This document shows, piece after piece, positions 6,044 through 51,071 of a DNA stretch of 64,000 nucleotides. Made by a program: the position numbers and the translations under genes. This stretch comes from a virus, in IMG/VR virus record IMGVR_UViG_3300009161_000044, positions 1-64,000 of that record. One strand, written 5' to 3'. The notes under the pieces were generated by a model. The model had not been told where the DNA came from, searched no databases, and saw only the letters and a list, made by a program, of their open reading frames with translations. Within the stretch, counting starts at the first letter, position 1. Each line of letters begins with the position of its first letter.

Positions 6044-6050
6044 AGTGTTT

Positions 6051-6058: not shown

Positions 6059-6095
6059 CCAAATCTATCACTAAACTTGTTTTTGACTGCCATGA

Positions 6096-6102: not shown

Positions 6103-6140
6103 CTTTGAGGGCGAACTGCCCCTACTAGAGGAGATAAACC

Positions 6141-9348: not shown

Positions 9349-9381
9349 TGTATACTCCTAGTGAACGAAAACTGTTTTACA

Positions 9382-9410
9382 ATTATACGGTCTGTATTGT
9401 GTTATGTCAA
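9382..9410 (-). promoter_or_regulatory. Consensus sigma70 promoter for the mazG-clamp loader operon
   Basis: TTGACA at 9410-9405, 17-bp spacer, TATAAT at 9387-9382. Both hexamers are perfect. An early class of expression by host RNA polymerase is expected. The -35 box overlaps the stop of the upstream glycosyltransferase gene. Confidence 0.9.
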
Positions 9411-10428: not shown

Positions 10429-10700
10429 TCTTCTAATCCTTCTATTCCTTCGGGGTCTTCGAGCGGATCGGGTTTTTCTTCTGGTGGGGGCGGAGCAGCT
10501 TGAGCCTTCAGTGCCTTTTGGCGTTGGTAATATTCTCGCGCTTTTTGTTCGCGTGTTTTAACAACAGAGCCACCGGGGCCAAGTTCATCTCCACGAGCAT
10601 TAGCTTGCATATTACCCACGGCAACTGCTAATTCGTTTTTTCTAAACAAGGCTTCAATATCAACTTGTTCGCCTTGCATGGTTCTATAAATCTTAGGCAT
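10425..10700 (-). CDS. Conserved T4-like phage protein (91 aa)
   Basis: Starts MPKIYRTMQGEQVDIEAL and contains NARGDELGPGGSVVKTREQ, a pattern I associate with small conserved proteins of T4-like aquatic phages. The C-terminus is Pro/Glu-rich. Function unknown. TAAATA lies ~30 bp upstream with a GAGGA ribosome binding site between. Confidence 0.75.
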   Translation of the reverse strand: MPKIYRTMQGEQVDIEALFRKNELAVAVGNMQANARGDELGPGGSVVKTREQKAREYYQRQKALKAQAAPPPPEEKPDPLEDPEGIEGLEE

Positions 10701-10720
10701 GTATGTGTCCTCAAGGATAC

Positions 10721-11209
10721 TTATTTAAAAAATTCACTGGCATCCAAATTCCACTTGATCGGATCAATTCTATGTACGCCTAATAGGAATAATACTAGAC
10801 TACTAACACTACTGCCGCGCCCTACACCCCATACGATCTTGTGTGTTCGCATAACATCAACCAAATACTTAATGGTCTGTAACACCGGTAGTAATTTACG
10901 TTTTTCAAACTCTTTCAATTCCCATTGTACTCGCGCTAGGTCATGTTCGTCACGCGATAATGTCAGCAAATGACTGATTATGTCCAACTCTCTGTACGAC
11001 TGGGGTATTAGCCATTCGTCGATACGCTCCTGCCAACTTAGTTGTGGAGGCAAACTGGGGAACAAGTCTTGATTGATCTCTAGCTTATCTTCTAGTTGCT
11101 CACGTAGGTCATTGGTAATCCAATCTAATGCAATTGCGGGGTCACAATTTTGCATTAGTACATGGACGAATTCGTCGCCGCCGATTGGGTTAGTTGTTAC
11201 TGCTTCCAC
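10721..11209 (-). CDS. Short DnaE-like protein (bacterial polymerase III alpha fragment)
   Basis: 162 aa. The C-terminal half reads like the start of the DnaE polymerase core: an LxxEL helix, an ILxxVxDxI-type segment, then WGVGRGSSVSSLVLFLLG and RIDPIKWNL, matching DnaE GRGSGAGSxVAYxLGITxIDP. It ends right there, before the catalytic PDxD aspartates, so it cannot polymerise alone. No frameshifted continuation is visible downstream. It is either a domesticated domain or a decayed remnant; tight packing in the operon (20-bp overlap with the upstream gene) favours a maintained gene. Confidence 0.75.
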   Translation of the reverse strand: MEAVTTNPIGGDEFVHVLMQNCDPAIALDWITNDLREQLEDKLEINQDLFPSLPPQLSWQERIDEWLIPQSYRELDIISHLLTLSRDEHDLARVQWELKEFEKRKLLPVLQTIKYLVDVMRTHKIVWGVGRGSSVSSLVLFLLGVHRIDPIKWNLDASEFFK

Positions 11210-11792
11210 CTTTTAACACTTTAGGAGTAAACTGAATGACTTTATTAAGTTTAACATCCTGATCGGATTTAGTCAACTGCCAATCAAGTCCTATAGACTT
11301 CCATGTAGGAAACTTTTGAAAACGATTGAAGTTGATGTTGGGTGTGTTCCACCAACGATCAGCAACCGGCAGGTCGTTGAGAATTTCTGCTAGCAGTTCT
11401 TTGCGTCCCCACTCAGCATAGTAACTGATGTTGTCACCTAGACTGCTGCTAACTTCAACTTCTTCGATGGTAAATCTTCCTTCTGCGATAGCATTCAGTT
11501 TAAATGCAAGCGCACAACTTAGTACCCAGTCAGGGCCATCATCGGGCAACACTACAATTTTGTTCTGCAGCTTTTGCATGGTCTTGAATATACTACTAGT
11601 CTTCTGCATGATTACTGTGCAGTTGAGCTCGTTGTTTAGGAAATGCTTGATACGTTGGAACGCTATGTTCTGCGCATGAGCACTTGCATCGTTCACTGTG
11701 AAAGTGACGTTCACTTCAAAACTATTTGGTAGTAGTGCATTTTCTACTACCGTGAGCGCAACAAAGTTGGCTCGAAATTTACAAAATTCCAT
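11190..11792 (-). CDS. Hypothetical phage protein (200 aa)
   Basis: Mixed alpha/beta; N-terminal half rich in Val/Phe/Asn and a C-terminal Trp-rich part (DRWWNTPN, PTWKSIGLDWQ). No motif recognised. It overlaps the DnaE-like gene by 20 bp and touches the 84-aa gene upstream by 1 bp. Confidence 0.6.
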   Translation of the reverse strand: MEFCKFRANFVALTVVENALLPNSFEVNVTFTVNDASAHAQNIAFQRIKHFLNNELNCTVIMQKTSSIFKTMQKLQNKIVVLPDDGPDWVLSCALAFKLNAIAEGRFTIEEVEVSSSLGDNISYYAEWGRKELLAEILNDLPVADRWWNTPNINFNRFQKFPTWKSIGLDWQLTKSDQDVKLNKVIQFTPKVLKGGSSNN

Positions 11793-12046
11793 TAGCTTAT
11801 ATCTATTACCGAGAATGGATCAGGATCGTTTTTGCTTTGCTGACTAGCATGCTTGGCATAACGTGCAGTGGTTCTGTTTATAACTTCATTGCGATAAGCT
11901 TCAATAATTCCAGACAACTGCATTTGCAATCCAAAATTACCTATACTTTGCGATGTTACGTACTTTCTGGACAACTCGTTTAGTTTTTGCTCCAACTGTT
12001 GGTCAGTGAGTGCATCTAAGTTATCCAGCAAAGGATTATAAAACAT
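11792..12046 (-). CDS. Hypothetical protein (84 aa)
   Basis: Helical, with a probable coiled coil (TDQQLEQKLNELSRKYVTSQ) and a Gln/Ser-rich C-terminus. It lies between virion fibre genes and the DnaE-like block, with 6 bp to the upstream gene. Possibly a virion accessory protein. Confidence 0.6.
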   Translation of the reverse strand: MFYNPLLDNLDALTDQQLEQKLNELSRKYVTSQSIGNFGLQMQLSGIIEAYRNEVINRTTARYAKHASQQSKNDPDPFSVIDIS

Positions 12047-12052
12047 AATGAA

Positions 12053-12610
12053 TTATGCTGCGTACTTTTTGAAGTTAGTCAAGTAGATAGTAGTGCCCGC
12101 ATCCCTTGTTACAAACTCATAAATGTAAATGTAGTTTGCAGCAGTGGTAGTAACTGCACCATCATAGACCTGGACTGGGGTGTCAAAGTCAACTGTGAAT
12201 GTACCCGATGATGGTAGGGTAAGTTCTACAGTCATTCTAGCTTCGGATCCTGCGGTTCCAAAATTGCTAAATGCTAATGTTCTAGTGCCGTTAGTTCCGC
12301 TAAGTGTTGCGTACTGATATCCACCGTTCGTCCAATTTAGAGTAACTGTGCCAGTACCTAGACTAGCACTAAAGTTATATCCCTTGGTTAGATTCTGCAA
12401 CGAAACATAGTTCTGTAGTGTGTTACCTGCAAACCCGTTGTCAGTATTGGTCTTGGCAGTGTAATCTTGCAGTATGGTTACTTCGCTTGCAGCAGTTTCT
12501 AGCTGTGTCTTAATAGCTAGAAAATTGTCTCTGAATCCTTGGCTGTCGTTTGCAACGCCGGCAACTGGGTAATTGGCATTAATCCCACTTGTGCTAATTG
12601 TTGATGTCAT
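12053..12610 (-). CDS. Virion structural protein, fibre-like
   Basis: 185 aa, rich in Thr, Gly, Asn and Ser with alternating beta pattern. N-terminal GFRDNFLAIKTQLETA resembles the trimerising N-terminal segment of short fibre proteins; the same xFxxNFxxI pattern occurs in the 271-aa protein nearby (FKCNDNFTAIEGA). It overlaps the 732-aa gene by 17 bp. Structural role inferred. Confidence 0.75.
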   Translation of the reverse strand: MTSTISTSGINANYPVAGVANDSQGFRDNFLAIKTQLETAASEVTILQDYTAKTNTDNGFAGNTLQNYVSLQNLTKGYNFSASLGTGTVTLNWTNGGYQYATLSGTNGTRTLAFSNFGTAGSEARMTVELTLPSSGTFTVDFDTPVQVYDGAVTTTAANYIYIYEFVTRDAGTTIYLTNFKKYAA

Positions 12611-14792
12611 AAATCGCTCCGTCAGTATTAAAGTATATGTACTTATCTTCAGTTATGGATGCATCAAAAGTTGTGTAGTCAAACAAGGTTCCGCCTTCGT
12701 CGAACAGTGTAATTGTTGGCAATATTGTCGCACCCTTAAGTATCATACGATCTACATGGAAGTCGATGTAGCTGAGTTTGTGCGTACTGGTCTTAATTTT
12801 GCGCAGTACCTGTGTACCATTTCCAGGCTTAACATGGCACAGCACTGCTGCAGCGATCCAACCTAATGGACGACCATCTAATTGGGGACTGGTCATCCAC
12901 TGTGGCAGTAAACTGTCTGTTGCTTGTCCCGGACCATCTTGCAGTCGAGCCAATTGATTTTGTAGAGTAGCCGGATAAATTTCCTGTATGCTAGAATACA
13001 AATCATCAGTAGACGGAATAGCTACAATTTGTGGAGGGCCTTCCATTACGCTGTTTAGCTGTGGATCAATGATGTCCACATAAACTGTATCGCATACATG
13101 ATTGCCCAAGCGATCCTTAACTGTGGCATAATGCACGTTGCCCAAACGGAAACGCTTTAGATCCCAGTTTTGGCTCACTGCATCTGCAAACTGTTCTGCG
13201 TCCGATTCTGCAATACCCACAAATGCTAGGAACTCACATTCCAAACTTCTACCATATTCACTATCCTCGCTGCGATACACGATCGAATTATTGAATATAC
13301 GTTGGTCGGTTACCAAGTTCCTCCACACAGTACGTTGACTGTTGGCCATATATGCTCGGTAGTACATGTTAAACGCTTGCGCAACTTCGCCGCTGTTTGC
13401 CACAAACGGTAATACTTCTATTTCAAAGTTTTGTATCTGTGTAGTTAACGGAGACAGATCCGCATAATCTTGTGATGGGTTATATACCTTAACAGAGAAC
13501 GAGTAAACACCTTCGGCTGTGGCCCAAACTACCTTACCACTGAGATAGCCCCTGGGTGTTAGTGTTAGTCCAGGTGGGAGATTGCCTTCATATAACTCAA
13601 AGAACAACGGCGTAGACGAATTCTGAACCATGTAGCAATTGATTGCCAGATCGCTAACCTCACCCTTTCGTATGTTGTATCGATATGTTGCGGCGTCTGT
13701 GATTGCTACGCCCATTGGATCTAAGAATTGGAAATCAACTCCGTCGCCGCCTACTACACGTAGACTAAATTCAGGAGTAATTGTATCTTGTACAGTAACA
13801 GATGCTACAACTTTTTTAATTGCAACGGAAAAACTATTGTATTGGTCCTGATATGCAATGTTAGGAATTAATCCAGTAACATAACCATTGCGTAGTTCCA
13901 CTTGTAGATACGGGGCAGTAGTTGCTTGATATCCGTCGTACCCCAATATTGATCCTTCGTCATATCCCTGCATGTCATAGGCATTTTGCGCGCCCATTAT
14001 AGAGTATTCTAGATCTTCTCCAGTAGGATTCCATGCTCGTAACTGTTTGAGAAATTGATTACTGTGTCTGTATGTGCCCAGGTTGGATGAGGTTAGCAGT
14101 ACGATAGGCAAGGATGAACTTGCATCTGCAGATATAATTGTGGTATCTGCAGTAATGTCAGTACTACTAGCATCTAATCCTTGTGTATCAAGTGTATACA
14201 GCGTGAACGTTTTATCTACATATGTATTTTTTTGTTCTATACTACGGGCACGTATGGTAAACTCGCTTACTCCGGTATAGAAAAATGTGCTATTACTAAC
14301 ATCCCAATTATCACTGGTAGTCGACGTGGCTACAAGATTAGCCCCGGCAATACCATATAGTTTACCTGTTGCATCTAGAAATACACCCTGTGGTAAAGAA
14401 CCATTCAGCAGTACAAATTCTAATGGTTTAATCCAGGATGCAGTGAATGCTAATTCGCGACGTGTACCGGCAACCCATCCGGGCAGTATTGTATCCTGTG
14501 TCCAACTAATACCTGGCGCTGCAGCTACGGTCAGTGTAAATGTACGATCAGTTACACCAGTGGCGTTTTGCGCACGTATAATGATTTTGTACACAGTGCT
14601 AGCAGTGACATTTGGCGCATCAAATGTCACAACAATAGTGGTTGCGGTTTTTGCAATAGATGAGTTGGGTATCTCGTTATCAATTACTGTAATAGATGTA
14701 CTGTCGCTGGCCGTAATCGTGTACGATACTGCTTCATCACCGGATGTAACAGTTCCTAAGGATGCGTTGGTAATCCAAATTGGATAAGACAT
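12594..14792 (-). CDS. Large virion protein with Ig-like (He_PIG type) repeats
   Basis: 732 aa. Several repeats read like putative-Ig domains: LPQGVFLDATGKLYGIAG (residue ~130) and LPPGLTLTPRGYLSGKVV (~410) share the LPxGxxLxxxGxLxG signature. The rest is beta-rich. Such domains decorate tail or baseplate proteins and may bind polysaccharide. It is in one operon with two fibre-like genes. Confidence 0.8.
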   Translation of the reverse strand: MSYPIWITNASLGTVTSGDEAVSYTITASDSTSITVIDNEIPNSSIAKTATTIVVTFDAPNVTASTVYKIIIRAQNATGVTDRTFTLTVAAAPGISWTQDTILPGWVAGTRRELAFTASWIKPLEFVLLNGSLPQGVFLDATGKLYGIAGANLVATSTTSDNWDVSNSTFFYTGVSEFTIRARSIEQKNTYVDKTFTLYTLDTQGLDASSTDITADTTIISADASSSLPIVLLTSSNLGTYRHSNQFLKQLRAWNPTGEDLEYSIMGAQNAYDMQGYDEGSILGYDGYQATTAPYLQVELRNGYVTGLIPNIAYQDQYNSFSVAIKKVVASVTVQDTITPEFSLRVVGGDGVDFQFLDPMGVAITDAATYRYNIRKGEVSDLAINCYMVQNSSTPLFFELYEGNLPPGLTLTPRGYLSGKVVWATAEGVYSFSVKVYNPSQDYADLSPLTTQIQNFEIEVLPFVANSGEVAQAFNMYYRAYMANSQRTVWRNLVTDQRIFNNSIVYRSEDSEYGRSLECEFLAFVGIAESDAEQFADAVSQNWDLKRFRLGNVHYATVKDRLGNHVCDTVYVDIIDPQLNSVMEGPPQIVAIPSTDDLYSSIQEIYPATLQNQLARLQDGPGQATDSLLPQWMTSPQLDGRPLGWIAAAVLCHVKPGNGTQVLRKIKTSTHKLSYIDFHVDRMILKGATILPTITLFDEGGTLFDYTTFDASITEDKYIYFNTDGAIYDINN

Positions 14793-18245: not shown

Positions 18246-18967
18246 CGTCCGTCGGTGTGCTCGACTAGTGCAGTGCAGCTTTCAACCCAATCCCCGTCAT
18301 TCATGTAAGTAATGCCGTTGATATCTTTGATAACTGCCTTGTGTATGTGTCCGCAGATAATGCCATCTGCATGTTTGTTCTTGCAGTAGCCCGCAATCAA
18401 ATCCTCAAAGTCACTCATAAAGCTGACTGCTTCCTTGGTCTTGTGCTTGAGATATGCACTCAAGCTCCAATACTTTAGCCCCATCTTACGGCGTGCCCAT
18501 GCTAGTGCATTGTTAATGTCTAGCAGTATACCGTATGCAAAATCGCCTAGGTGATAGAGAAACTTGAGATGTCCGCGTAGTGCCGTGTCAAACATGTCGC
18601 CATGTATCACAATATACTGCTTACCATCTAGTCCGTGATGGCGATGATGATTTTTGATTTCAATATTGCCAAAGCTGAGATCATATTGCAGTGTCTCGCG
18701 CAGTGCTTCGTCATGGTTGCCCACAATGTAGACGACATGCGTGTCACGTTTGGCTGCGGTCAGTATACGACGCACCACATTGGTATGACTCTGTGGCCAA
18801 TAGACCTTGCGGCTTAGTCGCCAACCATCAATGATATCTCCTACCAGGAAAAGATTATCACAGGTGGTGTGCTTGAGGAAATCGCATAAAGCATCGGCTT
18901 TACAACCTTTTGTACCAAGGTGAATGTCCGAGATGAATACGGATCTATAGTGCGTGGTTGGGTGCAT
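18206..18967 (-). CDS. LpxH-like metallophosphoesterase
   Basis: 253 aa. Calcineurin-fold motifs in order: SDIHLGT, GDIIDGW, GNHDE, IHGDMFD, and GHIHKA, binding two metal ions. The pattern and C-terminal NDGDWVESCTALVEH match the UDP-2,3-diacylglucosamine pyrophosphatase (LpxH2) group, which act in lipid A synthesis. Whether the phage enzyme acts on lipid A is not shown. It overlaps the UV endonuclease gene by 23 bp. Confidence 0.83.
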   Translation of the reverse strand: MHPTTHYRSVFISDIHLGTKGCKADALCDFLKHTTCDNLFLVGDIIDGWRLSRKVYWPQSHTNVVRRILTAAKRDTHVVYIVGNHDEALRETLQYDLSFGNIEIKNHHRHHGLDGKQYIVIHGDMFDTALRGHLKFLYHLGDFAYGILLDINNALAWARRKMGLKYWSLSAYLKHKTKEAVSFMSDFEDLIAGYCKNKHADGIICGHIHKAVIKDINGITYMNDGDWVESCTALVEHTDGRWELIYWNDVQKS

Positions 18968-19985
18968 GTTGTGTCTCTTGCAGGGGCTTACGCATACTAT
19001 TTAGTTGCTCGTAGAGGCGCCTGCTGGCTTGATTCTTAGCCTTGCTTTCACACATCATGTCTGCCCAGGACAAGTGTTCTAGTGCCCACGTGTTAACAGC
19101 ACGGTTCCAGTAGAAGTCACTGTGCGCCCGCAGCTTCTGCTTTTTGTGCCCTAGCTCTAGTAGCAGCTTATGGTCAGGCAAGGTCTCGGCACAATGGTCT
19201 ACTAGAACGTCCTCACGAGATACGCTATAATGGATAACAGGCCTAACGCCACGCCAGCTATCCACCACACGTGAAACGCAACTATCGGAGGGTAGGATGT
19301 ACTCTGCGTCACGTATCCAATTATGATGTATGTCAAGCACAATAGGGACCAAATTGCCCAAACTAAGACAATCATCGAGCCCATATGTCATCTCCTCATT
19401 TTCGATAGTAATAGTGTTGCGAGCTTCGGGACTTAGGCGAGGGTACACGTCACGAATGCCCTGTGCGCCACGCCGTCCGGCAATATGCACGTTGATCTTG
19501 AAGTCCTGAAACGTTTTACCATACCCCATCCAACGTGCTAGAGTAGCATGGTATTCAAATTCTTCTATACTCCTTTCGACCACATCATCACGCTCACTAG
19601 CGAGTACAGTGAACTGGCCAGGATGAAAAGAAGTACGAACCCCAGTACTGCGAGCAAGGTTTCCCACTGGCTCAAGATGCTTTTCCGCATAAGCACGAAC
19701 GTCGCTACGTTGCCAAAAGTAACGCCAACTAGGCTCAGTAAAAACAGGCAGTATGTCGCTACCCAAACGAACCATTCGAAGTTGCTCATCTAATATCCCC
19801 ACACGAGCTACAAGGTTATATGCTGCGTCAATATTATGGACCATGATGTCCCATAGTCGCTGTTCGGCTACCTCACGAGTTTGGCGATTAAGCCAAGCCA
19901 CAGTGGTGCTACGGTTGTTTAGTTCTGGAACCGTTTCTAGTGAGTCGTCTACCCACTTACATGCAAAACCAATCTTGCCTAGCAT
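18945..19985 (-). CDS. uvsE: UV damage endonuclease (UvdE/UvsE)
   Basis: 346 aa TIM-barrel AP-endonuclease-like enzyme. Typical segments: MLGKIGFACKW at the start, RLGSDILPVF, TSFHPGQFTVLASE, KINVHIAGRRGAQ, TIENEE, and DIHHNW. It nicks 5' of UV photoproducts to start repair. Length fits the family plus a short C-terminal tail. A strong sigma70 promoter precedes it, so it is probably early. Confidence 0.92.
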   Translation of the reverse strand: MLGKIGFACKWVDDSLETVPELNNRSTTVAWLNRQTREVAEQRLWDIMVHNIDAAYNLVARVGILDEQLRMVRLGSDILPVFTEPSWRYFWQRSDVRAYAEKHLEPVGNLARSTGVRTSFHPGQFTVLASERDDVVERSIEEFEYHATLARWMGYGKTFQDFKINVHIAGRRGAQGIRDVYPRLSPEARNTITIENEEMTYGLDDCLSLGNLVPIVLDIHHNWIRDAEYILPSDSCVSRVVDSWRGVRPVIHYSVSREDVLVDHCAETLPDHKLLLELGHKKQKLRAHSDFYWNRAVNTWALEHLSWADMMCESKAKNQASRRLYEQLNSMRKPLQETQHAPNHAL

Positions 19986-25261: not shown

Positions 25262-25295
25262 GAACTAAATTCCTAATAGAATCAATGACTTACGC
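25261..25295. repeat. Dispersed repeat, copy 2 (half element)
   Basis: On the minus strand GCGTAAGTCATTGATTCTATTAGG + AATTTAGTTCT: one arm and the loop of the palindrome without the second arm. It contains the TAA stop of the HNH gene at the same place where copies 3 and 4 hold a stop codon. Confidence 0.88.
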
Positions 25296-25862
25296 AGCCC
25301 GATGTAAACGACTGTTTTTTGGGACTCGTGCAAGCAGGAATTCCATCTGATCTGCTAGAATTTTACGATTTTTTAGGATCATTTTCTCAAATACACTGGG
25401 CGCATAGGGAACGTAGAGCAGGGGCATGCGGGCTTCTTCTGGAGTCTTGCAGCCCTTAGCACTGTTACAGGGCTTGCATGCGCTCACGGTGTTGCTCCAA
25501 AAATGTCGCCCACCCTTGCTACGGGGAATGATATGGTCAATGGTCAGTTCTCGATCACCAAATGCGTCACCGCAGTAGGCACAGACGTTACGGTCGCGAG
25601 CATAGAGGATTTCACGCACAGTAAATTGATTGTTTACGCGATTTAAGAACTTGTCCCCAAACAGTGGCCCTGTTACACCTACGATCGAGCTGATGTCAAT
25701 GGAACTTTGCTCACCGTATGCGTTAATGCCACCGTAGAATGTCTTGATAGTTGCGCCTACTTCCCACAGCACCTTGTGCTTGGCATAGTAGCAAACAGCG
25801 TCTTCGTAACAAACCCAATCTTTGGGCATGCCCGCGCTGTCTGTAATCAATACTTGACTCAT
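25290..25862 (-). CDS. HNH endonuclease
   Basis: 190 aa. The HNH core is in the second half: CAYCG, LTIDHIIPRSKGG, NTVSACKPCNSAKG, with the two CxxC pairs binding zinc. The N-terminal ~90 residues are a separate region. It is of the free-standing type common in phages (homing or packaging related). A sigma70 promoter (TTGTAT-17-TACAAT) lies just upstream and an AAAGGAGG ribosome binding site precedes the ATG. Confidence 0.88.
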   Translation of the reverse strand: MSQVLITDSAGMPKDWVCYEDAVCYYAKHKVLWEVGATIKTFYGGINAYGEQSSIDISSIVGVTGPLFGDKFLNRVNNQFTVREILYARDRNVCAYCGDAFGDRELTIDHIIPRSKGGRHFWSNTVSACKPCNSAKGCKTPEEARMPLLYVPYAPSVFEKMILKNRKILADQMEFLLARVPKNSRLHRAA

Positions 25863-26748: not shown

Positions 26749-27399
26749 TTACTTAACTTCGAAGTCGCCAATTCCGTCTGCAACTACTCCAAAAATCCGT
26801 TCGGTAGTAACAACTGCAGTCTTCTTAGCTGCAGTCTTGCGCACAGTCTTGGGACTAAATGCTTCTTCCACAATTGGGGTTGCAAGATAAGCAAGTACAT
26901 TCTCAGGCGTGCTTTCAACGTATGGGTCATCACCAGCATTGTTCTTCTTACCTGGCTCAACAAATGCAGCTTCAATGATGCCATTGTTGATTACTACTGC
27001 ATAACGCCAACTGCGAACACCAAAGCCCAAATTGTCCTTAGCAACTAGCATTCCCATCTTGTCTGTAAACTTATCGGAACCGTCTGGTAGCAACTTGACA
27101 TTCTTGATCTTGAGATCCTTGCCCCAAGCATTCATAGTGAATGCATCGTTAACGCTGAGGCAGTAAACCTCATCCACATGCTTGCGGAATGTCTTGTAAT
27201 TACGTTCAAAACCAGGTAGCTGCTCATTGCTGCAGGTTGGGGTAAACGCACCGGGTAGTGCAAACAGTACCACACGACGATCCTTGAATAGATCCCGGGT
27301 ATTAATATCCTGCCAATCGTACAGCCCGTCCTCGTCCTTCACACGAGTACGCAGTACAACTGCAGGCGCCTTGGTACCAATCAACTTAGACTTAGCCAT
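26749..27399 (-). CDS. Peroxiredoxin (Prx5/AhpE-like) with C-terminal extension
   Basis: 216 aa; the Prx5 core is ~160. Peroxidatic Cys lies in ALPGAFTPTCSNEQLPGF (residue ~55), with the conserved Pro/Thr. VYCLSVNDAFTMNAWGK and SWRYAVVINNGII fit the fold. The last ~45 residues are extra, with a Lys/Ala segment (VRKTAAKKTAVV) like tails in three other proteins here. It reduces H2O2 or organic peroxides using thiols. No signal peptide. Together with SOD it suggests oxidative-stress protection. Confidence 0.9.
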   Translation of the reverse strand: MAKSKLIGTKAPAVVLRTRVKDEDGLYDWQDINTRDLFKDRRVVLFALPGAFTPTCSNEQLPGFERNYKTFRKHVDEVYCLSVNDAFTMNAWGKDLKIKNVKLLPDGSDKFTDKMGMLVAKDNLGFGVRSWRYAVVINNGIIEAAFVEPGKKNNAGDDPYVESTPENVLAYLATPIVEEAFSPKTVRKTAAKKTAVVTTERIFGVVADGIGDFEVK

Positions 27400-28639: not shown

Positions 28640-29026
28640 TTAATTTCTACCTGGCTGTGGTTCACGATGCCACACACCATAGATGCAGTGTACTAGTTCA
28701 TGACCAAAGAACTCGGGCTCGTAACTGACCTTAGGATCAACCATGTATATGGTGCAGGTTAAATCATCTTTACGCAGCACACTGAACGCAGCAACGTTCT
28801 TAGGAGTAATAGTTCCTTGTATATTATTGCGTTTTGCAATCTCTGCACTTAGTGCAGCGGCACTGGGCATTAACACTATCTTCATGGGGAACTCTGTGCG
28901 TGTAAATGTTTCCTTTTCAAAGTAGTAACCATCTTTGCCCACCTTACCGGTGTCGCTGTTAGGTCCGCAAGCAACCAGAGCTAGTGCTGCAAAGAATGTT
29001 AATATTAATTGTTTAAAGTTTGCCAT
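28640..29026 (-). CDS. Lipoprotein with HExxH motif
   Basis: 128 aa from the ATG at 29026. N-terminal MANFKQLILTFFAALALVAC: signal peptide with lipobox LVAC, so lipidated at Cys20. Near the end FFGHELVHCIYGVWH holds HExxH plus another His, a zinc-metallopeptidase-like motif, though the protein is short. TAAATA ends 5 nt before the ATG. Last gene of the cytochrome cassette; it may be a maturation or assembly factor. Confidence 0.75.
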   Translation of the reverse strand: MANFKQLILTFFAALALVACGPNSDTGKVGKDGYYFEKETFTRTEFPMKIVLMPSAAALSAEIAKRNNIQGTITPKNVAAFSVLRKDDLTCTIYMVDPKVSYEPEFFGHELVHCIYGVWHREPQPGRN

Positions 29027-29034
29027 ACTATTAT

Positions 29035-29505
29035 TTAGTAAACATGTACGGTTATCACATGCACAAATACGCATATGATCATGATAAACACAATAGGCAA
29101 GTGTCCCACATGCCATGCGGAAAACAATCGTTCAAAGCCCTTGCGGTTACGTAGGTATCGACCTATTATGCCACTGGCTGCTACTATCAACATACTGAAT
29201 AGTGCTATGTTACTGTTGGGACTGCCCAAATGATAATTGCTGTGATAGAGAATAGTAATGGGTCCAAATATACCCAACAGTTGATGTATGTTAAACCATT
29301 CTGCAGTTTTACCAATCTTCCACATCCATTCAAATCTTTTGTGCATGGAATAAGAAAACATCAGTGCCATCAAGCTAGCACCTGTCCAACCTAGTATATA
29401 GCCTAACCCGTTGTGTGGGTCAATGAGCCTGTAGGGAGATATGACCCATCCAATAAAGATTGTAGTTACGGCCATAACCGTAACTACAACTATGCTAGTT
29501 TTCAT
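29035..29505 (-). CDS. Cytochrome b-like integral membrane protein
   Basis: 156 aa with four or five transmembrane helices (around residues 4-22, 32-52, 68-88, 97-113, 128-150). Candidate haem-b ligands are the His residues in NIHQLLG, YHSNYHLG, AWHVGHLP and FVHVITVHVY, arranged on opposite helices as in b561 or ferric-reductase-like proteins. It lies 6 bp after the multihaem gene, so a quinol-to-cytochrome or cytochrome-to-acceptor role is plausible but inferred. Confidence 0.72.
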   Translation of the reverse strand: MKTSIVVVTVMAVTTIFIGWVISPYRLIDPHNGLGYILGWTGASLMALMFSYSMHKRFEWMWKIGKTAEWFNIHQLLGIFGPITILYHSNYHLGSPNSNIALFSMLIVAASGIIGRYLRNRKGFERLFSAWHVGHLPIVFIMIICVFVHVITVHVY

Positions 29506-29511
29506 CCTGCC

Positions 29512-30279
29512 TTAAATTAACTTCCGTGTGGCGCGGTAATTAATGGCAAAGAATTCGCCTTGCAACATCTTCTGAATGCGTGGATCGTTAATGAGCTGTG
29601 TGCATTTGAAGCTGATGCTGCTGTTTACACTATGGCAAGTTTCACAAGAATCGCTAGTAATTGGGTGTCCGCCCGGAGCATTGATCTTGCCCTTGGCAGT
29701 TGTACCATTATGGCAAGTTACACAGCCGGTTGTGATGCCTGCGTGAATTGCAGCAAAGCTACTATCCCAGTTACGTCCAGTGTTCTTGTGGCATACACCG
29801 CAGTCTTGTGTGGTTGGAATGTGGTCACTTGGCTTACCTTGTGCACCATATGTTCTAAATGCGTTATTGTGACAACTATCACATCTCTGTGTACTTACAG
29901 AGGCGTGGTTCATGTTTACACCTGATGTAAATGTCACTGTTGCGTGGCAGCTACCGCAGTCTGTAGTTCCAATTGGAATGTGGCTGGTACTGCGTCCAAC
30001 AGTTGCACTTGTTGGCGAACCGTTGTGGCAAGTTGCACAAACTTTAGGGGTACCAATAAATCTACCACCTGCGTGACAGCTGGCGCAGGTTGAACACTTG
30101 CCTGTGCTTAGGTGCGCACCAGTTAGCGGAAAGTTTGGGTGAATGGTTTCGTAGAGGGTGCATTCTGCAGCAGATGCGTCCGGAGAAAAAGTAGTTAGTA
30201 CTGCTGTGGGTATTGCATAAGTTGCAAACACGATTACAGCCATAAGAATAGACGCAAAGAAACTCTTTAATTTCGCCAT
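29512..30279 (-). CDS. Secreted seven-haem cytochrome c
   Basis: 255 aa. N-terminal signal/anchor (residues ~8-30) with a possible cut after DASA. Seven CxxCH haem sites in order: CASCH, CATCH, CGSCH, CDSCH, CGVCH, CVTCH, CETCH, spaced 15-40 residues. Many are preceded by a free His (TSHIP, SDHIP, GGHPI) that could be the distal ligand, as in cytochrome c3/c7-type proteins. The periplasm would be the site of haem attachment by host Ccm. A TATAAATAC late box lies ~30 bp upstream. The downstream gene is a membrane cytochrome b. Confidence 0.93.
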   Translation of the reverse strand: MAKLKSFFASILMAVIVFATYAIPTAVLTTFSPDASAAECTLYETIHPNFPLTGAHLSTGKCSTCASCHAGGRFIGTPKVCATCHNGSPTSATVGRSTSHIPIGTTDCGSCHATVTFTSGVNMNHASVSTQRCDSCHNNAFRTYGAQGKPSDHIPTTQDCGVCHKNTGRNWDSSFAAIHAGITTGCVTCHNGTTAKGKINAPGGHPITSDSCETCHSVNSSISFKCTQLINDPRIQKMLQGEFFAINYRATRKLI

Positions 30280-30293
30280 GATAATGGTCCCCG

Positions 30294-30312
30294 TTAGGAT
30301 AGTATTTATACT
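30294..30312 (-). promoter_or_regulatory. Late promoter for the cytochrome genes
   Basis: TATAAATAC on the minus strand between the barrel gene and the multihaem gene, with a GGGGA ribosome binding site after it. It would allow separate late expression of cytochromes c and b and the lipoprotein. Confidence 0.6.
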
Positions 30313-32213
30313 TAGAAGTCGTAACGGTACCCAATGTAAAAGGTTTGATTGGTGAATACGGGACTTACTTGATAGATGGTTACAGCATATGGACGTAGTA
30401 TTAAGGATCTAGCATACTGTGCTTCCAGCTTGCCGTGCTCGCCAAATGCGTATATTATGCGTAGGTTTGCACTAATTGTGCGCGATGTGTGCGCTATGTC
30501 GTCATAGCGTAAGGTAGCAGACAAGCTGTTTGTATCCCAAAATCTATAGTTGTTGGCCACTGTAACAAAGTAGCTGCGGCGTTCACCAATGGTACGATTG
30601 GCTACAAATTCAACTGTGTTGTGAGAGTCCCAAACGTTTTCGCCGGACAAGTGTAGTGTTAGCGAATAGTTGTTGCGTGTGCCCACAGTTACTGGCACGG
30701 GATCAAACTGTGGCGAAATAGTAAATCCCGGAGTAGTACTCAAGTTGGTTACTTGCGCATCACCGGTCAGCGTCCATGTTTTATCTATGGTATAGCCCGC
30801 ACCTACTACTAGCGAACTAGCTATGGGTGTGGTGGTGATAATATAACGATAGATGTCGTTTGAATTCAATCCTGACCTAGCTAATAATTCTCCCACTGAA
30901 TTGTATACTTGACGTTCGGGTTCCAGTATACCTAAGCCCAATGCAACGTCTGCGTATGGTATAGGACTGCGCCGGCGTTCGTAGCTAGCAAATATGTTGT
31001 AGCCGTTAAAGTAGTGTATGCCCTGAAAGTTAACCTTGTTAAACTTGCTGTACTGAAAGTCATATTCGGTATTCAACAGTGCAGTAGTGGAAGTACCACC
31101 GTATTCTACATCTGCACCCAGTGCCATGCGTTCAACAAATCCATCTGCTATGCTGCGATTGATGTATAATGAAGTAGTGGTATTGTTAAATGGTCGCCAT
31201 TCAAACCCCGCACCCACAAAGCGTCTAGTGGCAGTAGTTTCTCCGGTATATGGTACACCTGCTGCAAACGTCCACTTGTATTGGTCTTCGGTGCGGTACC
31301 AAGCACTGACTCCATCATACCGTCCAATGGCACCAGCTGAGGGGTTTTGTCTACCCAGTCGTATGTTGTATCTAACGAATGTATCTTCAAAGTTTACATA
31401 AGCAATGTTAAGTCTTGCAGTGTTATCTTTATTCTCTAGTAGATCTCTTGCTGCGGTAAAGCGTAAACGACTGCTCCATATGTATTGATTGTGATGACGT
31501 TTGGCATCCAGTTGCAGTCCAGTTAAGCTGCTTATCTGAGAAGTGTTCCACTGTATGATACCTGCACTGTTACTGGTTGCACCAAAGTATAGATATTCAC
31601 TAGCGGACCCTGATAGTTCAAAGCTGTCGCCTTGTCGTGGTGCGCGTTCCTTAAAGTTGTTTGCTGTTTCCGTGGGCTCAATTATTTCCAATGCCATTAA
31701 ACGCTGCTGTACTCGCACACGGTCGTCAGTTTTCACATCATATAACTTTAAGTACAGTGCGTATTCTACTTTGGCTTTGTCATACAGTTTGGACTTTTCG
31801 TATGCATACCCCAATAGTTCGTGTGCTTCTCGTGCGGTGGCTGGTGGCTGTGTGAGAATGAACGAACGTAGATTATTGATTGCTACAGTGTAGGGACCTT
31901 CTCTGCTGGTTAATACTTGTCGTGCTTCGCGTATGAGTTCTTCAGGTGGGCGTGTATCAAATGTTACTATGGGTTGATCTGGATCCGTTGGTGTGGCTGT
32001 AGCAGTGCGTGGTCGAGGTTTTGTCTCGGTGGGAACTGTTTCCACAATAGGCGGTAACCAACGTACAATGGTTACAGTTTCTGTTCTGCGTCGTGGTACT
32101 GGAGCTGCAGGTGGCGCAACTGGTGGACGATTAATAATGCCACTGACCTGGCTATAAGTCACAGCGGGATATACTGCTGCACACAGTACGGCTACAACTA
32201 AAAACCTAATCAT
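30312..32213 (-). CDS. Outer-membrane beta-barrel with TPR domain (porin-like)
   Basis: 633 aa. Signal peptide MIRFLVVAVLCAAVYPAVTY; Pro/Thr-rich linker (residues ~30-80); helical TPR-like region (~85-165, AREAHELLGYAYEKSKLYDK); then ~440 residues of alternating beta strands with GRQNPSAGAIGRYDGVSAWY and the terminal FYIGYRYDF, the outer-membrane C-terminal Phe signature. The domain order recalls PgaA or the NfrA-type phage N4 receptor. Next to secreted cytochrome c it could be the porin sheath of an electron conduit; an exopolysaccharide or receptor role is the alternative. Confidence 0.82.
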   Translation of the reverse strand: MIRFLVVAVLCAAVYPAVTYSQVSGIINRPPVAPPAAPVPRRRTETVTIVRWLPPIVETVPTETKPRPRTATATPTDPDQPIVTFDTRPPEELIREARQVLTSREGPYTVAINNLRSFILTQPPATAREAHELLGYAYEKSKLYDKAKVEYALYLKLYDVKTDDRVRVQQRLMALEIIEPTETANNFKERAPRQGDSFELSGSASEYLYFGATSNSAGIIQWNTSQISSLTGLQLDAKRHHNQYIWSSRLRFTAARDLLENKDNTARLNIAYVNFEDTFVRYNIRLGRQNPSAGAIGRYDGVSAWYRTEDQYKWTFAAGVPYTGETTATRRFVGAGFEWRPFNNTTTSLYINRSIADGFVERMALGADVEYGGTSTTALLNTEYDFQYSKFNKVNFQGIHYFNGYNIFASYERRRSPIPYADVALGLGILEPERQVYNSVGELLARSGLNSNDIYRYIITTTPIASSLVVGAGYTIDKTWTLTGDAQVTNLSTTPGFTISPQFDPVPVTVGTRNNYSLTLHLSGENVWDSHNTVEFVANRTIGERRSYFVTVANNYRFWDTNSLSATLRYDDIAHTSRTISANLRIIYAFGEHGKLEAQYARSLILRPYAVTIYQVSPVFTNQTFYIGYRYDF

Positions 32214-32215
32214 TG

Positions 32216-32608
32216 CTACTTGGTGATGCGGCGAGCAACCTTCTTCTTGGTCTTCTTAGCAGCAGTCTTAGGTGGGGCCTTGCTTAAAAAATGATACTTG
32301 TGGAATATCACAATCCATACAAACAGTGCAGCCAATCCTATGTTAAGTAATATCTCGCCAGGAGGAGCTTTTACTGTATCAATGATCATGCCGTGACGTG
32401 GTATCATATCATAGTAAATGGTATTCATAGCGTTCCATGCTGAAGTAGCAATAATGGAAACCAGTGCTATTTTAAGCGACCAATGTTGTAGTACAGGCCA
32501 TTTGTAAATAATGCTGTTACCGTTACCAAACAGCAGTACAAAGAACGCAGTCATTGCCAGACAAATAACAATATTAGCCGCTATATTCAACAGGTACATG
32601 AATTCCAT
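32216..32608 (-). CDS. Multi-pass membrane protein with basic tail (130 aa)
   Basis: Three transmembrane segments (residues ~8-30, 43-62, 84-104) and a C-terminal tail PPKTAAKKTKKKVARRITK. A haem role is possible from the cassette position but the histidines are few. 2 bp from the barrel gene start. Confidence 0.7.
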   Translation of the reverse strand: MEFMYLLNIAANIVICLAMTAFFVLLFGNGNSIIYKWPVLQHWSLKIALVSIIATSAWNAMNTIYYDMIPRHGMIIDTVKAPPGEILLNIGLAALFVWIVIFHKYHFLSKAPPKTAAKKTKKKVARRITK

Positions 32609-32618
32609 TGTCTACTCC

Positions 32619-32996
32619 TTATCTTTTTCGCACAGTCTTTTTTCGAGCTATGGGTTTCTTTCTAGTTAGCTTACGCCTATTAGGAATTATTTCCTCTGCA
32701 GCATCGGGTATGAATTTTTTAATGGCATATTCAATACCAGTTAACCCAAGAAAACCCAGTATGAATGCAATACCAAAAGTAAGATTTTGATTACTAATAT
32801 TTAAAGTATCAACTACAATTGGGGTTATATAATTGGCGCTGCCAATACCGGTGGCAATACTAACAGCAATGCTGTATAAATGCGTATTAGCTCCTTTTTT
32901 AATGGTTAGAAGCGAACCAAATAATCCCGACACAATAAGCCCCGCATTGATTCCAACTTCCTGAAGAAGATTCTCCTGCATTGTCGTTACCCCCAT
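32619..32996 (-). CDS. Membrane protein with basic tail (125 aa)
   Basis: Three hydrophobic segments (LIVSGLFGSLLTI, VSIATGIGSANYITPIV, LTFGIAFILGFLGLTGIEY) and the end RRKLTRKKPIARKKTVRKR. ATG at 32996 is 7 nt after a TAAATA box; an internal ATG at 32981 has a better GGGGG site, so the start is uncertain. Holin-like topology is an alternative. Confidence 0.65.
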   Translation of the reverse strand: MGVTTMQENLLQEVGINAGLIVSGLFGSLLTIKKGANTHLYSIAVSIATGIGSANYITPIVVDTLNISNQNLTFGIAFILGFLGLTGIEYAIKKFIPDAAEEIIPNRRKLTRKKPIARKKTVRKR

Positions 32997-34259: not shown

Positions 34260-36185
34260 ATGAAAAGAAGTATTAGTTCACGCACAATATTAGAAGATAA
34301 ACGCGCATTGTTAGAAGATCTATGCGAAGGCATGAATCTCAGGGATCGACTGCTAACAGAAGAAATCTACAATGAGTTTCATGATATTGGACGCATGATT
34401 TCCGAAGCCCAACTGACACAGGATCAGATACAGAAGCTGTTTGCAGCAGTATCCAAGGGTGCAGAAAAGGGTTGGAACGTGGACTTACCTGGTGGTGATC
34501 CAGATATTGGACCAGCAGGCGAAGGTGGCAACAAGACACTAATGGGCAAGATCTCGGGCGCGTGGCAAAAGCTCAAGAGTAAGATTGCACAAAGTGGCCC
34601 AGTAAGCGGATTTGACGTTACAGTAGACAAGCTACAAAAGCAAATCTCTGCAAAGTCAGGACCAGACGGAAAGCTAACCAAGGCAATCGCAGCATATAGA
34701 AAGTTTGGTGATAAGCATCCCGTCATGCAGGGTGTTGTTATTGCAGGTCTAACTGCGGCAGCAGCAATGGGCGGCGGACTAGGCCTAGGTGCAGTTGCAG
34801 GCGTGGCAGGCGGACTAAGAACACTGGACCGCATGCTAATGGGTGATCGTGCTAGTAGCGCACTATGGAAGGGCTTCAAGGCAGGCGCAGTTACATACGG
34901 CGTTGGTTCAATCATCCAGGGTGTACAAGGTGGGCAGACTGCCACAGATACTGGTGCCGGACAAACTGCATCAGCGCAGCCGGCAGCAACACCAGCTCCA
35001 ACTGGTGTAGATACAGCCACTCAAACTGTTGCAGCAGCTAAGGGCGATACACTAAGTCAGATTGCTCAGAAGATGGACGTTAGTGTTAAGGATCTAGTGC
35101 AAGCAAACCCACAAATAACCAATCCTAATGATTTGGGGCTTGGTGAGATTGTCAATATACCAAGTGCAACAGGAAATGCTGTATATCAAGGTGGAGTGGG
35201 AACTGCGTCCGACACTGCTGCTAAGGTCGCAAGCGGTCAATATACTCCAAGTCGCTACGGTATTAAAGAAAGCGTAGACTGGGACAAGATTTGCACTACT
35301 TTTGCAATCCAAGAAAGTATGAAGATGCCACTAAAGAGCGCAGTATACCTAACACCATATGGTGTACAGCAGGTAATGGAAACTGTTGAAAAGTATAAGG
35401 ATGAACTAGACGAAGGTATTTGGGATGCAGTTAAGGCTGGATGGAACACTTCCAAGAACAAGATCACAACAGACAAGTTGGACTTGTGGTGGCGTAGAAA
35501 CCGCGGCGAGAATCCAACAGACGGCCCAGTAGACAAACAAGTTGTCGTCGACTTCCTCAAGAAGATGGGCGTTAAGAGTGGTCTGGTTGATCGTGCGTTT
35601 AAGGAAGTTGGTATTCCGGACGAAGTTAACAAAGACGATGTTCCACCAACACCTACACCTACACCTACACCTACACCTACACCTACACCTACACCTACAC
35701 CTACACCTACACCTACACCAAAACCAACACCAACTCCTCCGCCAACACCTACACCTGGCGATAAAGAGCCTAAGCCCGGTGAGGTAGAACCTAAGCCAAC
35801 ACCTAATCCTGGTGACACTAAGCCACAGGATGGCGGTCAGGATGCAACACCGGCTCCAGCACCATCAATTACTCCTGCCAAGAGCAGCCAGGAATTGCTC
35901 TCAGGTCTCAATGCATTGTGGGATGACAATGCGGAATGGATCTACGAGAAGGGCGTTGGTAAGGATCTAATCAATTGGTTACAGGCCAAGATCAAGAAGT
36001 ATCACACCGGTCCAGTTGGAGTTGGCCCAACTGATAAGAAAACTGTCAGTAAGTACGGTCTTGCAGAAGCCAAGCGCCGTAAGATGCTGATGATCGAACG
36101 CAAGATTGCTCAATACGAACAGCTAATTGCCGAGAACAAGAAAAAGCAAAAGAAGACGCTAACCGAATCTCGTAAAAAGAGATAA
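34260..36185 (+). CDS. LysM-containing virion protein with Pro-Thr repeat linker
   Basis: 641 aa. N-terminal helical part (1-130), a Gly/Ala-rich possibly membrane-inserting stretch (~155-185, GVVIAGLTAAAAMGGGLGLG), a LysM domain (~258-303, KGDTLSQIAQKMDVSVKDLV) that binds peptidoglycan, a (PT)n linker (~463-495), and a basic C-terminal helix (KRRKMLMIERKIAQYE). It could be a virion protein delivered through the cell wall. A CTAAATA late box lies ~40 bp upstream of the ATG. Confidence 0.78.
   Translation: MKRSISSRTILEDKRALLEDLCEGMNLRDRLLTEEIYNEFHDIGRMISEAQLTQDQIQKLFAAVSKGAEKGWNVDLPGGDPDIGPAGEGGNKTLMGKISGAWQKLKSKIAQSGPVSGFDVTVDKLQKQISAKSGPDGKLTKAIAAYRKFGDKHPVMQGVVIAGLTAAAAMGGGLGLGAVAGVAGGLRTLDRMLMGDRASSALWKGFKAGAVTYGVGSIIQGVQGGQTATDTGAGQTASAQPAATPAPTGVDTATQTVAAAKGDTLSQIAQKMDVSVKDLVQANPQITNPNDLGLGEIVNIPSATGNAVYQGGVGTASDTAAKVASGQYTPSRYGIKESVDWDKICTTFAIQESMKMPLKSAVYLTPYGVQQVMETVEKYKDELDEGIWDAVKAGWNTSKNKITTDKLDLWWRRNRGENPTDGPVDKQVVVDFLKKMGVKSGLVDRAFKEVGIPDEVNKDDVPPTPTPTPTPTPTPTPTPTPTPTPTPKPTPTPPPTPTPGDKEPKPGEVEPKPTPNPGDTKPQDGGQDATPAPAPSITPAKSSQELLSGLNALWDDNAEWIYEKGVGKDLINWLQAKIKKYHTGPVGVGPTDKKTVSKYGLAEAKRRKMLMIERKIAQYEQLIAENKKKQKKTLTESRKKR
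35649..35714. repeat. Hexanucleotide repeat (ACACCT)11
   Basis: Eleven perfect in-frame copies encode alternating Thr-Pro. Unit slippage would change the linker by two residues without breaking the frame. Confidence 0.95.
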
Positions 36186-43956: not shown

Positions 43957-44979
43957 TTATACCTCTCGTTTAGCTTGTTCATAGTCGGACTCGCACATAT
44001 CACGTACAAGTTGTGCAAGATCACAATCAGGTTCCCATCCTAATATTTCTTTAATTTTAGTTGGATCACCTAGAAGATTAGTAACGTCAACTGGGCGATA
44101 GTATGCGGGGTTAACACGTATTAGTACTTGCCCCGTATTAACATCGCGACCTATTTCGTCAACGCCTGACCCTTCCCATTGCAAATCAATACCATAGTAT
44201 TCCGCGGTAAGTTTGCAGAACTCTCGAATACTGGTTTGCTTGCCGGTAGCAACTACATAGTCGTCGGCTCGATCTGTTTGTAGCATCATCCACATGGCAC
44301 GTACATAGTCCTTAGCATGCCCCCAATCTCGCTTGCTGTCTAGATTACCTAGTTCAAGCACGTTCTGTTTACCTAACATCATGCGAGCAAATGCGCGGGT
44401 GATCTTGCGTGTAACAAATGTTTCACCACGTCGTGGACTTTCGTGATTGAACAGTATGCCATTACAAGCAAACATGTTGTAGCTTTCACGATAGTTTACA
44501 GTGATCCAATAGGCATATAGTTTAGCTACGCCGTATGGACTGCCCGGATAGAATGGCGTAGTTTCATTTTGCGGACTGATTTGCCCCACACCAAACATTT
44601 CGCTGGTACTGGCTTGATAGAACCTAATACGGTCTTCCATCTTGAGACTGTGTATTGCATCTAGTATGCGTAGTGTACCTAGTGCATTAATATCGCTGGT
44701 CATAACAGGAGCGTTAAAGCTAACCTTAACATGACTTTGAGCAGCTAGATTGTACAACTCATCTGGACGAATTTCGTCAATCAGATTGCGAAGACTATTG
44801 CCATCGCTGAGGTCGCTTTGCTGCAATATAATGTGCTGCTTGAGATGACTGATGTTTGGATGTGCTGCGTCTGCCGTTCTACGTACTAGTCCATGTACTT
44901 CATAACCCTTGTCTAGTAACAGTTCCGCAAGGTAGCTGCCATCTTGTCCGGCAACACCTGTAATAAGTGCTCGCTTCAT
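43957..44979 (-). CDS. gmd: GDP-mannose 4,6-dehydratase
   Basis: 340 aa short-chain dehydrogenase. NADP-binding [15 protein letters not shown] at the start, catalytic [10 protein letters not shown] (YxxxK) with Ser/Thr in QASTSEMFG, and [16 protein letters not shown], a diagnostic GMD segment. Converts GDP-mannose to GDP-4-keto-6-deoxymannose, precursor of fucose, colitose, perosamine. First gene of the glycan operon. Confidence 0.95.
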
Positions 44980-50354: not shown

Positions 50355-51071
50355 CTAGTCTAGAACTGTGCATCCAGGTACAATTGAATATCCATTTACA
50401 TCTCTAAATCGTCTAAATACAGCTTCATATATCGCACCTTCCCGCCATAACAAGTTGCCGTTAGTAAAGCTACTACTAGTAGTGTTCATTGGTGTATAAA
50501 AAAAGGTATTTTTAATTATAAAGTTCTGCCTAAACCTTGTTTGCATAACGTCATTGAGCCAATTGTCCCCATAACATATGTCTAATCCACCTGGAATATC
50601 TATCCAATCAGATTTATGGATAAACATCAACGATCCGCCATTGCCTCCGGTGACTCCTTCATGCCAGGGAACAAGATCAATTTCTCCTGTTACTGGCAAA
50701 CCACAAGATGCATCATAGGATATGTTATAAAATTGATTTGGTTTGAACACCTTATGAATCTTATGGAATAGTTTTATATCAACTATGATGTCATCGTTGA
50801 GAATACAGATTCTGTTATATCGGCTTACGGCTACGCCAAAATTATATGCAGGATTTACATATATGTTTTTACCAAGATCGTATAATTTAACCTTAGGGTG
50901 CGTTAATACTTCATGATTTGGCGTAGCTGCAGTATCATTGTCGATGATAATAACTTCGCCAATTATGTCTAACTGCACAACAACAGAAAGAAAATCTAAG
51001 AATGGAGCAAATCTCCACATGGTGGGCGTCACTACTGAGAATTTAGATTCCTCTGAAATTGTTAATTCCAC
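50355..51071 (-). CDS. GT-A glycosyltransferase, paralogue of the 9.4 kb gene
   Basis: 238 aa. VVTPTMWRFAPFLDFL, NIYVNPAYNFGVAVSR and CILNDDIIVDIKLFHKI repeat the pattern of the protein at 9.4 kb. The DxD-like NDD binds the nucleotide-sugar. Overlaps the aminotransferase-like gene by 10 bp. Confidence 0.78.
   Translation of the reverse strand: MELTISEESKFSVVTPTMWRFAPFLDFLSVVVQLDIIGEVIIIDNDTAATPNHEVLTHPKVKLYDLGKNIYVNPAYNFGVAVSRYNRICILNDDIIVDIKLFHKIHKVFKPNQFYNISYDASCGLPVTGEIDLVPWHEGVTGGNGGSLMFIHKSDWIDIPGGLDICYGDNWLNDVMQTRFRQNFIIKNTFFYTPMNTTSSSFTNGNLLWREGAIYEAVFRRFRDVNGYSIVPGCTVLD

Follow-up and report, generated by a model that had tools for sequence, protein, structure and literature searches.

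We asked whether a minus-strand gene cassette in a viral genome fragment could provide the phage with its own route for moving electrons across the envelope of the infected bacterium. The window analyzed here is a stretch of 64,000 nt (positions 1 to 64,000 of IMG/VR record IMGVR_UViG_3300009161_000044). An earlier note, based on the sequence alone, described in this window an outer-membrane barrel with a TPR region, a secreted cytochrome c with seven CxxCH sites, a membrane protein with paired histidines, and an HExxH lipoprotein, and inferred from the resemblance to MtrCAB and PioAB that the phage may alter host respiration or extracellular electron transfer. Our analysis confirmed these genes and supported a porin-cytochrome electron conduit, although the relative is of the PCC3 type, a proposed porin-cytochrome conduit (He et al. 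2017, PMC5566968), and not MtrCAB/PioAB. Assembly of the conduit and its effects on respiration remain inferred.

Genes of the cassette

All four ORFs were found on the minus strand. The barrel gene (30312..32213, minus strand) encodes 633 aa, and its AlphaFold2 model (mean pLDDT 64) has five helices at residues 90-177, followed by 22 strands (197-632). The TPR assignment of the N-terminal helices rests on weak hits, namely YbgF (E 0.044) and TPR chains matched by the phage barrel profile. The cytochrome gene (29512..30279, minus strand; MHC7) encodes 255 aa with seven CXXCH motifs, a match to Pfam Cytochrome_C7 (E 2e-10), and a signal peptide recognized by eye. In 14 of 14 MHC7 sequences, 14 His columns were invariant, that is, the seven proximal His of the CXXCH motifs and seven others.

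The third gene (29035..29505, minus strand) encodes 156 aa with five membrane-length helices in the structural model. Its histidines form two WX3HX13H motifs, and it also carries the SGXXG motif, as described for the inner-membrane protein (IMP) of PCC3 (PMC5566968). We therefore predict that it is a dihaem cytochrome b of the PCC3-IMP type. It shares the histidine pattern of DUF4405/ferric-reductase-type dihaem cytochromes b, with a sub-threshold DUF4405 hit (E 0.03), but is a stand-alone protein without a fused haem-c domain. Structural comparison of the IMP model with VIA gave superoxide oxidase (Z 9.2) and SpNOX (Z 7.8) as the top rows, both weak, and Foldseek gave 48 matches at E up to 10 but none at 0.001.

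The HExxH protein was listed as a 158-aa ORF overlapping the IMP gene, but by eye the likely start is at 29026, giving a 128-aa lipoprotein (28640..29026, minus strand) with an LVAC lipobox and a GHELVH sequence. It had only sub-threshold family hits and no tblastn homologue in the other loci inspected, and another record (G004) has an unrelated DUF4329/JAB-like lipoprotein at its IMP. Thus, the lipoprotein is a neighbor not shown to belong to the conduit, contrary to its grouping in the earlier note. Upstream, the gene run extends through a small membrane protein of unknown role (32216..32608, minus strand), which had no Pfam or PHROG match, to a holin-like gene at its head (32619..32996, minus strand; phrog_2359 holin, E 5e-11).

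The sequence TATAAATACTAT (30299..30310, minus strand), which appears to be T4-late-promoter-like, ends 19 nt before the MHC7 start codon and is the only exact copy in the window. TATAAATA alone was not enriched in the window (4 matches, 4.5 expected), and TAAATACTA was enriched only weakly (3 against 0.9). We therefore relied only on position: TAAATA was found upstream of MHC7 in 6 of 6 phage loci, against 0.9-4.5% of 55-nt windows, although the upstream stretch examined was 60 nt and three of these loci (L003, L005, and L009) are close relatives.

Recurrence and selection of the cassette in phages

The cassette is real, recurrent, and under purifying selection. A barrel gene lies directly upstream of one or two cytochrome genes in 18 of 19 IMG/VR records, the 19th being cut by a contig end, and in 12 of 13 groups after near-copies were collapsed. 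The second cytochrome, usually with five haems, is present in 9 of 13 distinct phage groups but not in the window. The IMP was found in only 5 of 13 phage records searched, and all five distinct phage IMPs carry both WX3HX13H motifs and SGXXG. The dN/dS values of the least saturated pairs were 0.13 for the porin, 0.07 for MHC7, 0.04 for the second cytochrome, and 0.08 for the IMP, and they reached up to 0.44 for more divergent, more saturated pairs.

Six of 20 records carry a T4-type portal (PF07230 above its cut-off), among them a separate 266-kb record to which the window is 100% identical over 20,765 bases, whereas G000 itself, a 69-kb fragment, does not. The nearest portal relatives were Sinorhizobium phage Phosso and Pseudomonas PA5oct/Paride-type phages at 50-53%. 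tblastn against INPHARED phages with the IMP, barrel, and cytochrome found nothing. In the barrel phylogeny, the phage barrels plus that of L042, a Methylophilaceae mini-cassette, stood apart from 29 other cellular barrels with support of 100/100. A tree with the phages alone as a clade was not rejected (p 0.17), so transfer from phage to bacterium is only suggested; a search of plasmids with the L042 barrel found nothing.

Comparison with bacterial porin-cytochrome clusters

The window barrel matched Methylophilaceae barrels, and profile-profile comparison aligned the phage barrels with Methylophilaceae porins over 534 columns, including the helical part (probability 100, E 3e-57). In that family, a multihaem ORF lies beside the porin in 21 of 22 loci, whereas outside Methylophilaceae only 7 of 14 short loci showed one. 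Five longer clusters read IMP, 27-haem cytochrome, large cytochrome(s) of 14-74 haems, and porin, the order given for Slit_1446-1449 (PMC12016527). These clusters were identified as PCC3 by composition and order, not against a named reference sequence. Of 187 genomes, 21 had both porin and strong IMP hits, 2 the porin only, 1 the IMP only, and 163 neither, with a cut-off for the IMP (E below 1e-60) that was chosen after seeing the list; at E 0.001, 58 of 187 genomes had an IMP-like hit. Of 35 unique IMP-like proteins, three bacterial ones lacked the motifs.

The phage version is miniature compared with PCC3. Its cytochromes have mostly five or seven haems, whereas the extracellular cytochromes of PCC3 have a median of 34 haems (smallest 10) and the periplasmic ones a median of 21. 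The phage IMP is about 150 aa, without the roughly 120-aa insert, instead of about 260-315 aa. MHC7 resembles the N-terminal part of the giant cytochrome next to the porin, by eye and by short BLAST matches, rather than a short MtrA. No homologue of the 27-haem periplasmic cytochrome was seen in the phage loci read, although whole phage records were not scanned with a 27-haem query; profile A1 gave 1-2 matches per record in 15 records. The cytochrome-assembly gene PF01578 was found in none of 15 records.

The cassette would work like MtrCAB, MtoAB, or PioAB, with a barrel plus a multihaem wire across the outer membrane. However, MHC7 has seven haems, not ten, the DmsE-family decahaem model TIGR03508 scored 29.6 against a cut-off of 192.2, and the cytochrome profile had no PDB sequence match at E 0.001. 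According to the earlier note, a barrel aligning best to polysaccharide-export or receptor proteins would refute a conduit, and at fold level this is formally the case. The top rows of Foldseek were Campylobacter MOMP and the alginate exporter AlgE, and the top 50 of VIA were mostly TonB-dependent receptors with some Occ porins (Z 18.4 to 15.4). PgaA and MtrB were not among the top rows of either search, which excludes neither, and the 21 sequence matches of the barrel profile, to the TPR part, did not include MtrB. At 7-12% identity, we interpret these matches as likeness among large barrels, whereas sequence homology ties the phage barrel to cytochrome-linked porins.

Discussion

Homology, gene order, motifs, and selection point to a phage-borne, miniaturized PCC3-type porin-cytochrome conduit, and we consider this explanation likely, though not certain. 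In this model, the barrel sits in the outer membrane and holds or docks MHC7, and in most relatives a second, usually five-haem cytochrome as well. The short IMP, a predicted dihaem b-type protein of the inner membrane, would pass electrons between the quinone pool and the periplasmic haem chain, directly or through host multihaem cytochromes; given how few records carry the IMP, many phages would need host parts. The cassette adjoins lysis genes in three lineages (the window and the loci L002 and L009) and was presumably made late in infection with them. It most likely lets the infected cell discharge electrons to extracellular acceptors (Fe(III), humics) when oxygen is short, so that energy supply holds until lysis. 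Membrane topology, electron flow, late timing, direction, and benefit are inferred without biochemistry or expression data, and PCC3 itself is functionally unverified (PMC12442390). No phage-encoded conduit was found in full-text searches of openly licensed papers or in passages of PMC8788666, PMC12503164, PMC10159854, PMC9894754, PMC11480375, and PMC6893657, which does not show its absence from print.

The same conduit may instead run in the opposite direction, with electrons from Fe(II) or reduced humics feeding the host chain during infection, but we consider this unlikely. PCC3 was modeled as carrying electrons from an extracellular donor to the quinone pool, and the IMP has the proposed quinone-active cytochrome b pattern (PMC5566968). 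On the other hand, PCC3 clusters of S. lithotrophicus ES-1 were down on Fe(II) (PMC8788666), and an outward use was suggested for methylotrophs with PCC genes (PMC6344600).

Two other functions are improbable to a similar degree. In a redox-protection module, the IMP would act like superoxide oxidase (superoxide to quinone) with the c haems as a further sink, together with a peroxiredoxin encoded at 26749-27399, 1.6 kb downstream of the IMP. The best VIA row for the IMP model, E. coli superoxide oxidase, fits this idea, but Z under about 13 is weak for helical bundles, the linked porin has no role in it, and no peroxiredoxin homologue was seen in the other loci inspected. Alternatively, the barrel or conduit might short the envelope, or sense redox state, to time lysis, in view of the adjoining holin or endolysin genes. 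Such adjacency may only reflect late transcription, and in the loci L004, L015, and L023-L027 no lysis gene was recognized next to the cassette, although not all neighbors were searched. The bis-His haems and the IMP point to electron transfer.

That the barrel is a receptor, export, or exclusion protein with an unrelated cytochrome as its neighbor is very unlikely despite the fold matches, because porin and cytochrome stay together in 12 of 13 distinct phage groups and 21 of 22 Methylophilaceae loci, and porin and strong IMP hits co-occur in 21 of 24 genomes that have either. An assembly chimera or mislabeled bacterial contigs are extremely unlikely, and already contradicted for the large records, even though most records are fragments and 14 of 20 lack a T4 portal hit, given the recurrence of the cassette, the six portal-carrying records, the identity with the 266-kb record, and the separate barrel branch.

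More speculatively, T4-like jumbo phages, probably of oxygen-poor habitats, might carry a minimal conduit of IMP, porin, and short haem wires so that the dying cell keeps respiring on minerals or humics until it bursts. In this tentative view, which we hold to be somewhat less likely than not, phage lineages have shrunk PCC3 to what may be the smallest natural trans-envelope wire and hand it back to bacteria, as L042 nests in the phage porin branch.

Phage auxiliary metabolic genes for energy metabolism also act on host energy flow, but those appear to be mostly single enzymes or subunits, whereas the cassette would be a multi-protein trans-envelope route. If it works, it would offer a very compact conduit (633-aa porin, 255-aa seven-haem wire, and 156-aa membrane protein) for bioelectronics, and a tractable system for testing how PCC3, which has no demonstrated function, moves electrons. 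It would also mean that viruses manipulate extracellular electron transfer, which would link phage infection to iron and humic cycling.

Gene organization of the cassette

The window is 64 kb of a 69,274-base virus record and contains 22 tRNA genes. On the minus strand, one after another, lie a holin-like gene (32619-32996; phrog_2359, E 5e-11), a gene for a small membrane protein (32216-32608), and genes for a barrel with N-terminal helices (30312-32213), a seven-haem cytochrome (MHC7; 29512-30279), a membrane protein with five membrane-length helices (29035-29505), and a HExxH lipoprotein (about 28640-29026). The earlier note had named the last four of these as a set resembling a trans-envelope electron conduit, and all four elements are present. 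A peroxiredoxin gene (26749-27399; phrog_2281, E 2e-65) lies 1.6 kb downstream of the membrane protein gene. Elsewhere in the window are a LysM protein with a long PT repeat (34260-36185), a ClpA/ClpB-like ATPase (1503-3722), a UvdE UV endonuclease (18945-19985), and nucleotide-sugar genes for GDP-mannose dehydratase (43957-44979), an RfbH-like aminotransferase (51062-52357), and a dehydratase/epimerase (60211-61155), which suggest surface remodelling.

Recurrence and conservation in phages

We scanned IMG/VR with the cytochrome, its alignment, and the barrel alignment, which gave 9, 19, and 13 records, respectively. In the 19 cytochrome records together, the barrel gene is directly upstream of the cytochrome gene or gene pair in 18, whereas in the 19th the cytochrome match begins 15 bases from the contig end. 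Collapsing records that are at least 98.6% identical in their best aligned piece left 13 groups, 12 of them with the barrel. Nine groups have a second, shorter cytochrome between barrel and MHC7, three (that of the window and those of the phage loci L013 and L027) have one cytochrome, and one is cut. A T4-type portal was found in 6 of 20 records, of 266, 327, 328, 179, 369, and 69 kb, and the window is 100% identical over 20,765 bases to the separate 266-kb record.

For the least saturated pairs, dN/dS was 0.128 for the porin (phage loci L003-L009), 0.072 for MHC7, 0.043 for the second cytochrome, and 0.080 for the membrane protein (phage loci L048-L049), whereas other pairs with computable dS reached 0.44 (porin, phage loci L004-L009, dS 1.3). 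Across 14 MHC7 sequences (13 phage, 1 bacterial), there are exactly 14 invariant histidine columns, 7 in CXXCH and 7 elsewhere, and the window protein has 14 histidines in all. The second cytochrome has four to six CXXCH, and in six of nine phage sequences also a CX4CH, so it usually has five haems; only three non-motif His columns are conserved across its ten sequences. In the barrels of L003, L004, L005, and L009, about 90 residues precede the hydrophobic signal-like segment, an unexplained N-terminal extension that the window's barrel lacks.

A membrane protein with the motifs of the PCC3 inner-membrane protein

For PCC3, He et al. (PMC5566968) describe an inner-membrane protein (IMP) of about 300 aa with five helices, SGXXG on helix 4, and WX3HX13H on helices 3 and 5, and propose two b haems and quinone activity. 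All five distinct phage proteins compared here have both WX3HX13H motifs and SGXXG. In the window protein, W70, H74, H88, S111, G112, G115, W131, H135, and H149 are invariant in a 12-row alignment with bacterial members. The phage proteins lack an insert of about 120 residues before the last helix. The structural model of the window protein agrees in helix layout (pLDDT 77). The top rows of the VIA structure comparison were superoxide oxidase (Z 9.2, rmsd 3.5, 126 aligned) and the NADPH oxidase SpNOX (Z 7.8, rmsd 3.9, 124 aligned), both presumably dihaem b proteins, although Z in this range is weak for helical bundles, and Foldseek alone found nothing significant.

Bacterial relatives

A single scan of genome contigs gave 5 loci. 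The best of these, L042, comes from a MAG titled Methylophilaceae and has MHC7, barrel, and a 5-haem cytochrome in a row (7977-10935), with transposase-like genes nearby as judged by eye. In 187 genomes of that family, the barrel is in 23 and a strong IMP hit (E below 1e-60) is in 22, with both in 21 (Fisher p 2e-24, not corrected for common descent; the cut was chosen after the list was seen). At E 0.001, 58 genomes have an IMP-like hit. Longer regions were retrieved for 18 of the 22 barrel genomes other than that of L042. In the short loci of all 22, 21 have a multihaem ORF beside the barrel, and in the exception the barrel runs to a contig end.

Five clusters retrieved at greater length read FAD/4Fe-4S protein (divergent), IMP, 27-haem cytochrome, one or two cytochromes of 14-74 haems, and barrel. 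In one of the bacterial loci, L154, a single cytochrome ORF of 2551 aa with 74 CXXCH (5952-13607) lies beside the porin. After the barrel, the one cluster tested by Pfam has an ABC ATPase (CcmA-like), CcmB, a CcmC-like protein, CcmE, CcmF, and a redoxin (CcmG-like), and many of the others have ORFs of like sizes. The order IMP, periplasmic, extracellular, porin is that listed for Slit_1446-1449 (PMC12016527). Profile comparison aligned phage and Methylophilaceae barrels over 534 columns including the helical part (E 3e-57). In a wider draw from the class, 44 of 369 genomes have the barrel; of 14 of these loci, read with about 1.5 kb on each side, 7 show a multihaem ORF.

In the barrel tree, twelve phage barrels and L042 form one side of a 100/100 branch, with 29 other bacterial barrels on the other. 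L042 sits among the phage barrels (95/88 with the window's group), but a tree with the phages alone as a clade is not rejected (p 0.17). So either a phage gave the mini-cassette to a bacterium, or an unsampled bacterial mini-version gave it to phages.

Genomic context in the phages

The cassette is adjoined by a holin gene in the window, by an endolysin gene directly downstream in the phage locus L002, and by an endolysin gene directly upstream in L009. TAAATA begins within 37 nt upstream of the MHC7 start in 6 of 6 loci, against 0.9-4.5% of 55-nt windows. In the window it is TATAAATACTAT, the only exact copy, which appears to resemble the T4 late promoter. No cytochrome-assembly gene PF01578 was found in 15 records, so maturation would use the host's system. 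An HNH endonuclease of the window (25290-25862) has 44-47% identical homologues about 2-5 kb from the conduit in three distant phages (L023 5372-5935; L025 7124-7720; L026 2215-2772), and is possibly a mobilising element.

The IMP gene is next to the cassette in the records G001 (the window's segment), G004, and G018, and about 59 and 67 kb away in G005 and G009. It was not found in 8 of 13 records, several of them fragments. A later scan found IMP relatives in two further contigs, L130 and L134, without a barrel or cytochrome in the stretch examined. Beside the IMP, two phages have unrelated peptidase-like lipoproteins, DUF4329/JAB-like in L004 (4172-4693) and HExxH in the window (28640-29026). 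Where the IMP is away from the porin, a 193-197-aa protein that looks by eye like a small secreted barrel is encoded directly upstream of it (L048 915-1496; L049 1457-2050), with no Pfam match for that of L048.

Possible mode of action

Fold searches with the barrel model named generic porins, AlgE, and TonB receptors, which is the kind of result that the earlier note had set as refuting its electron conduit. At 7-12% identity, we read this result as barrel generality. In the phage loci read, the miniature lacks two defining features of PCC3, namely the giant extracellular and periplasmic cytochromes, and we therefore call it a PCC3-type variant and not a PCC3. Its function is undemonstrated, and PCC3 is itself functionally unverified (PMC12442390).

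We infer that the barrel, which has 22 strands in a middling model, forms the pore, and that it is spanned by MHC7, which by eye is like the N-terminal unit of the giant cytochrome that neighbours the porin in bacteria. The helical part would dock periplasmic carriers, and the IMP would tie the chain to quinone. The direction of electron flow may be either way: PMC5566968 models PCC3 inward, whereas PMC6344600 suggests that methylotrophs with PCC genes could pass electrons to Fe(III) or humics in anoxic water, which we take as the better guide.
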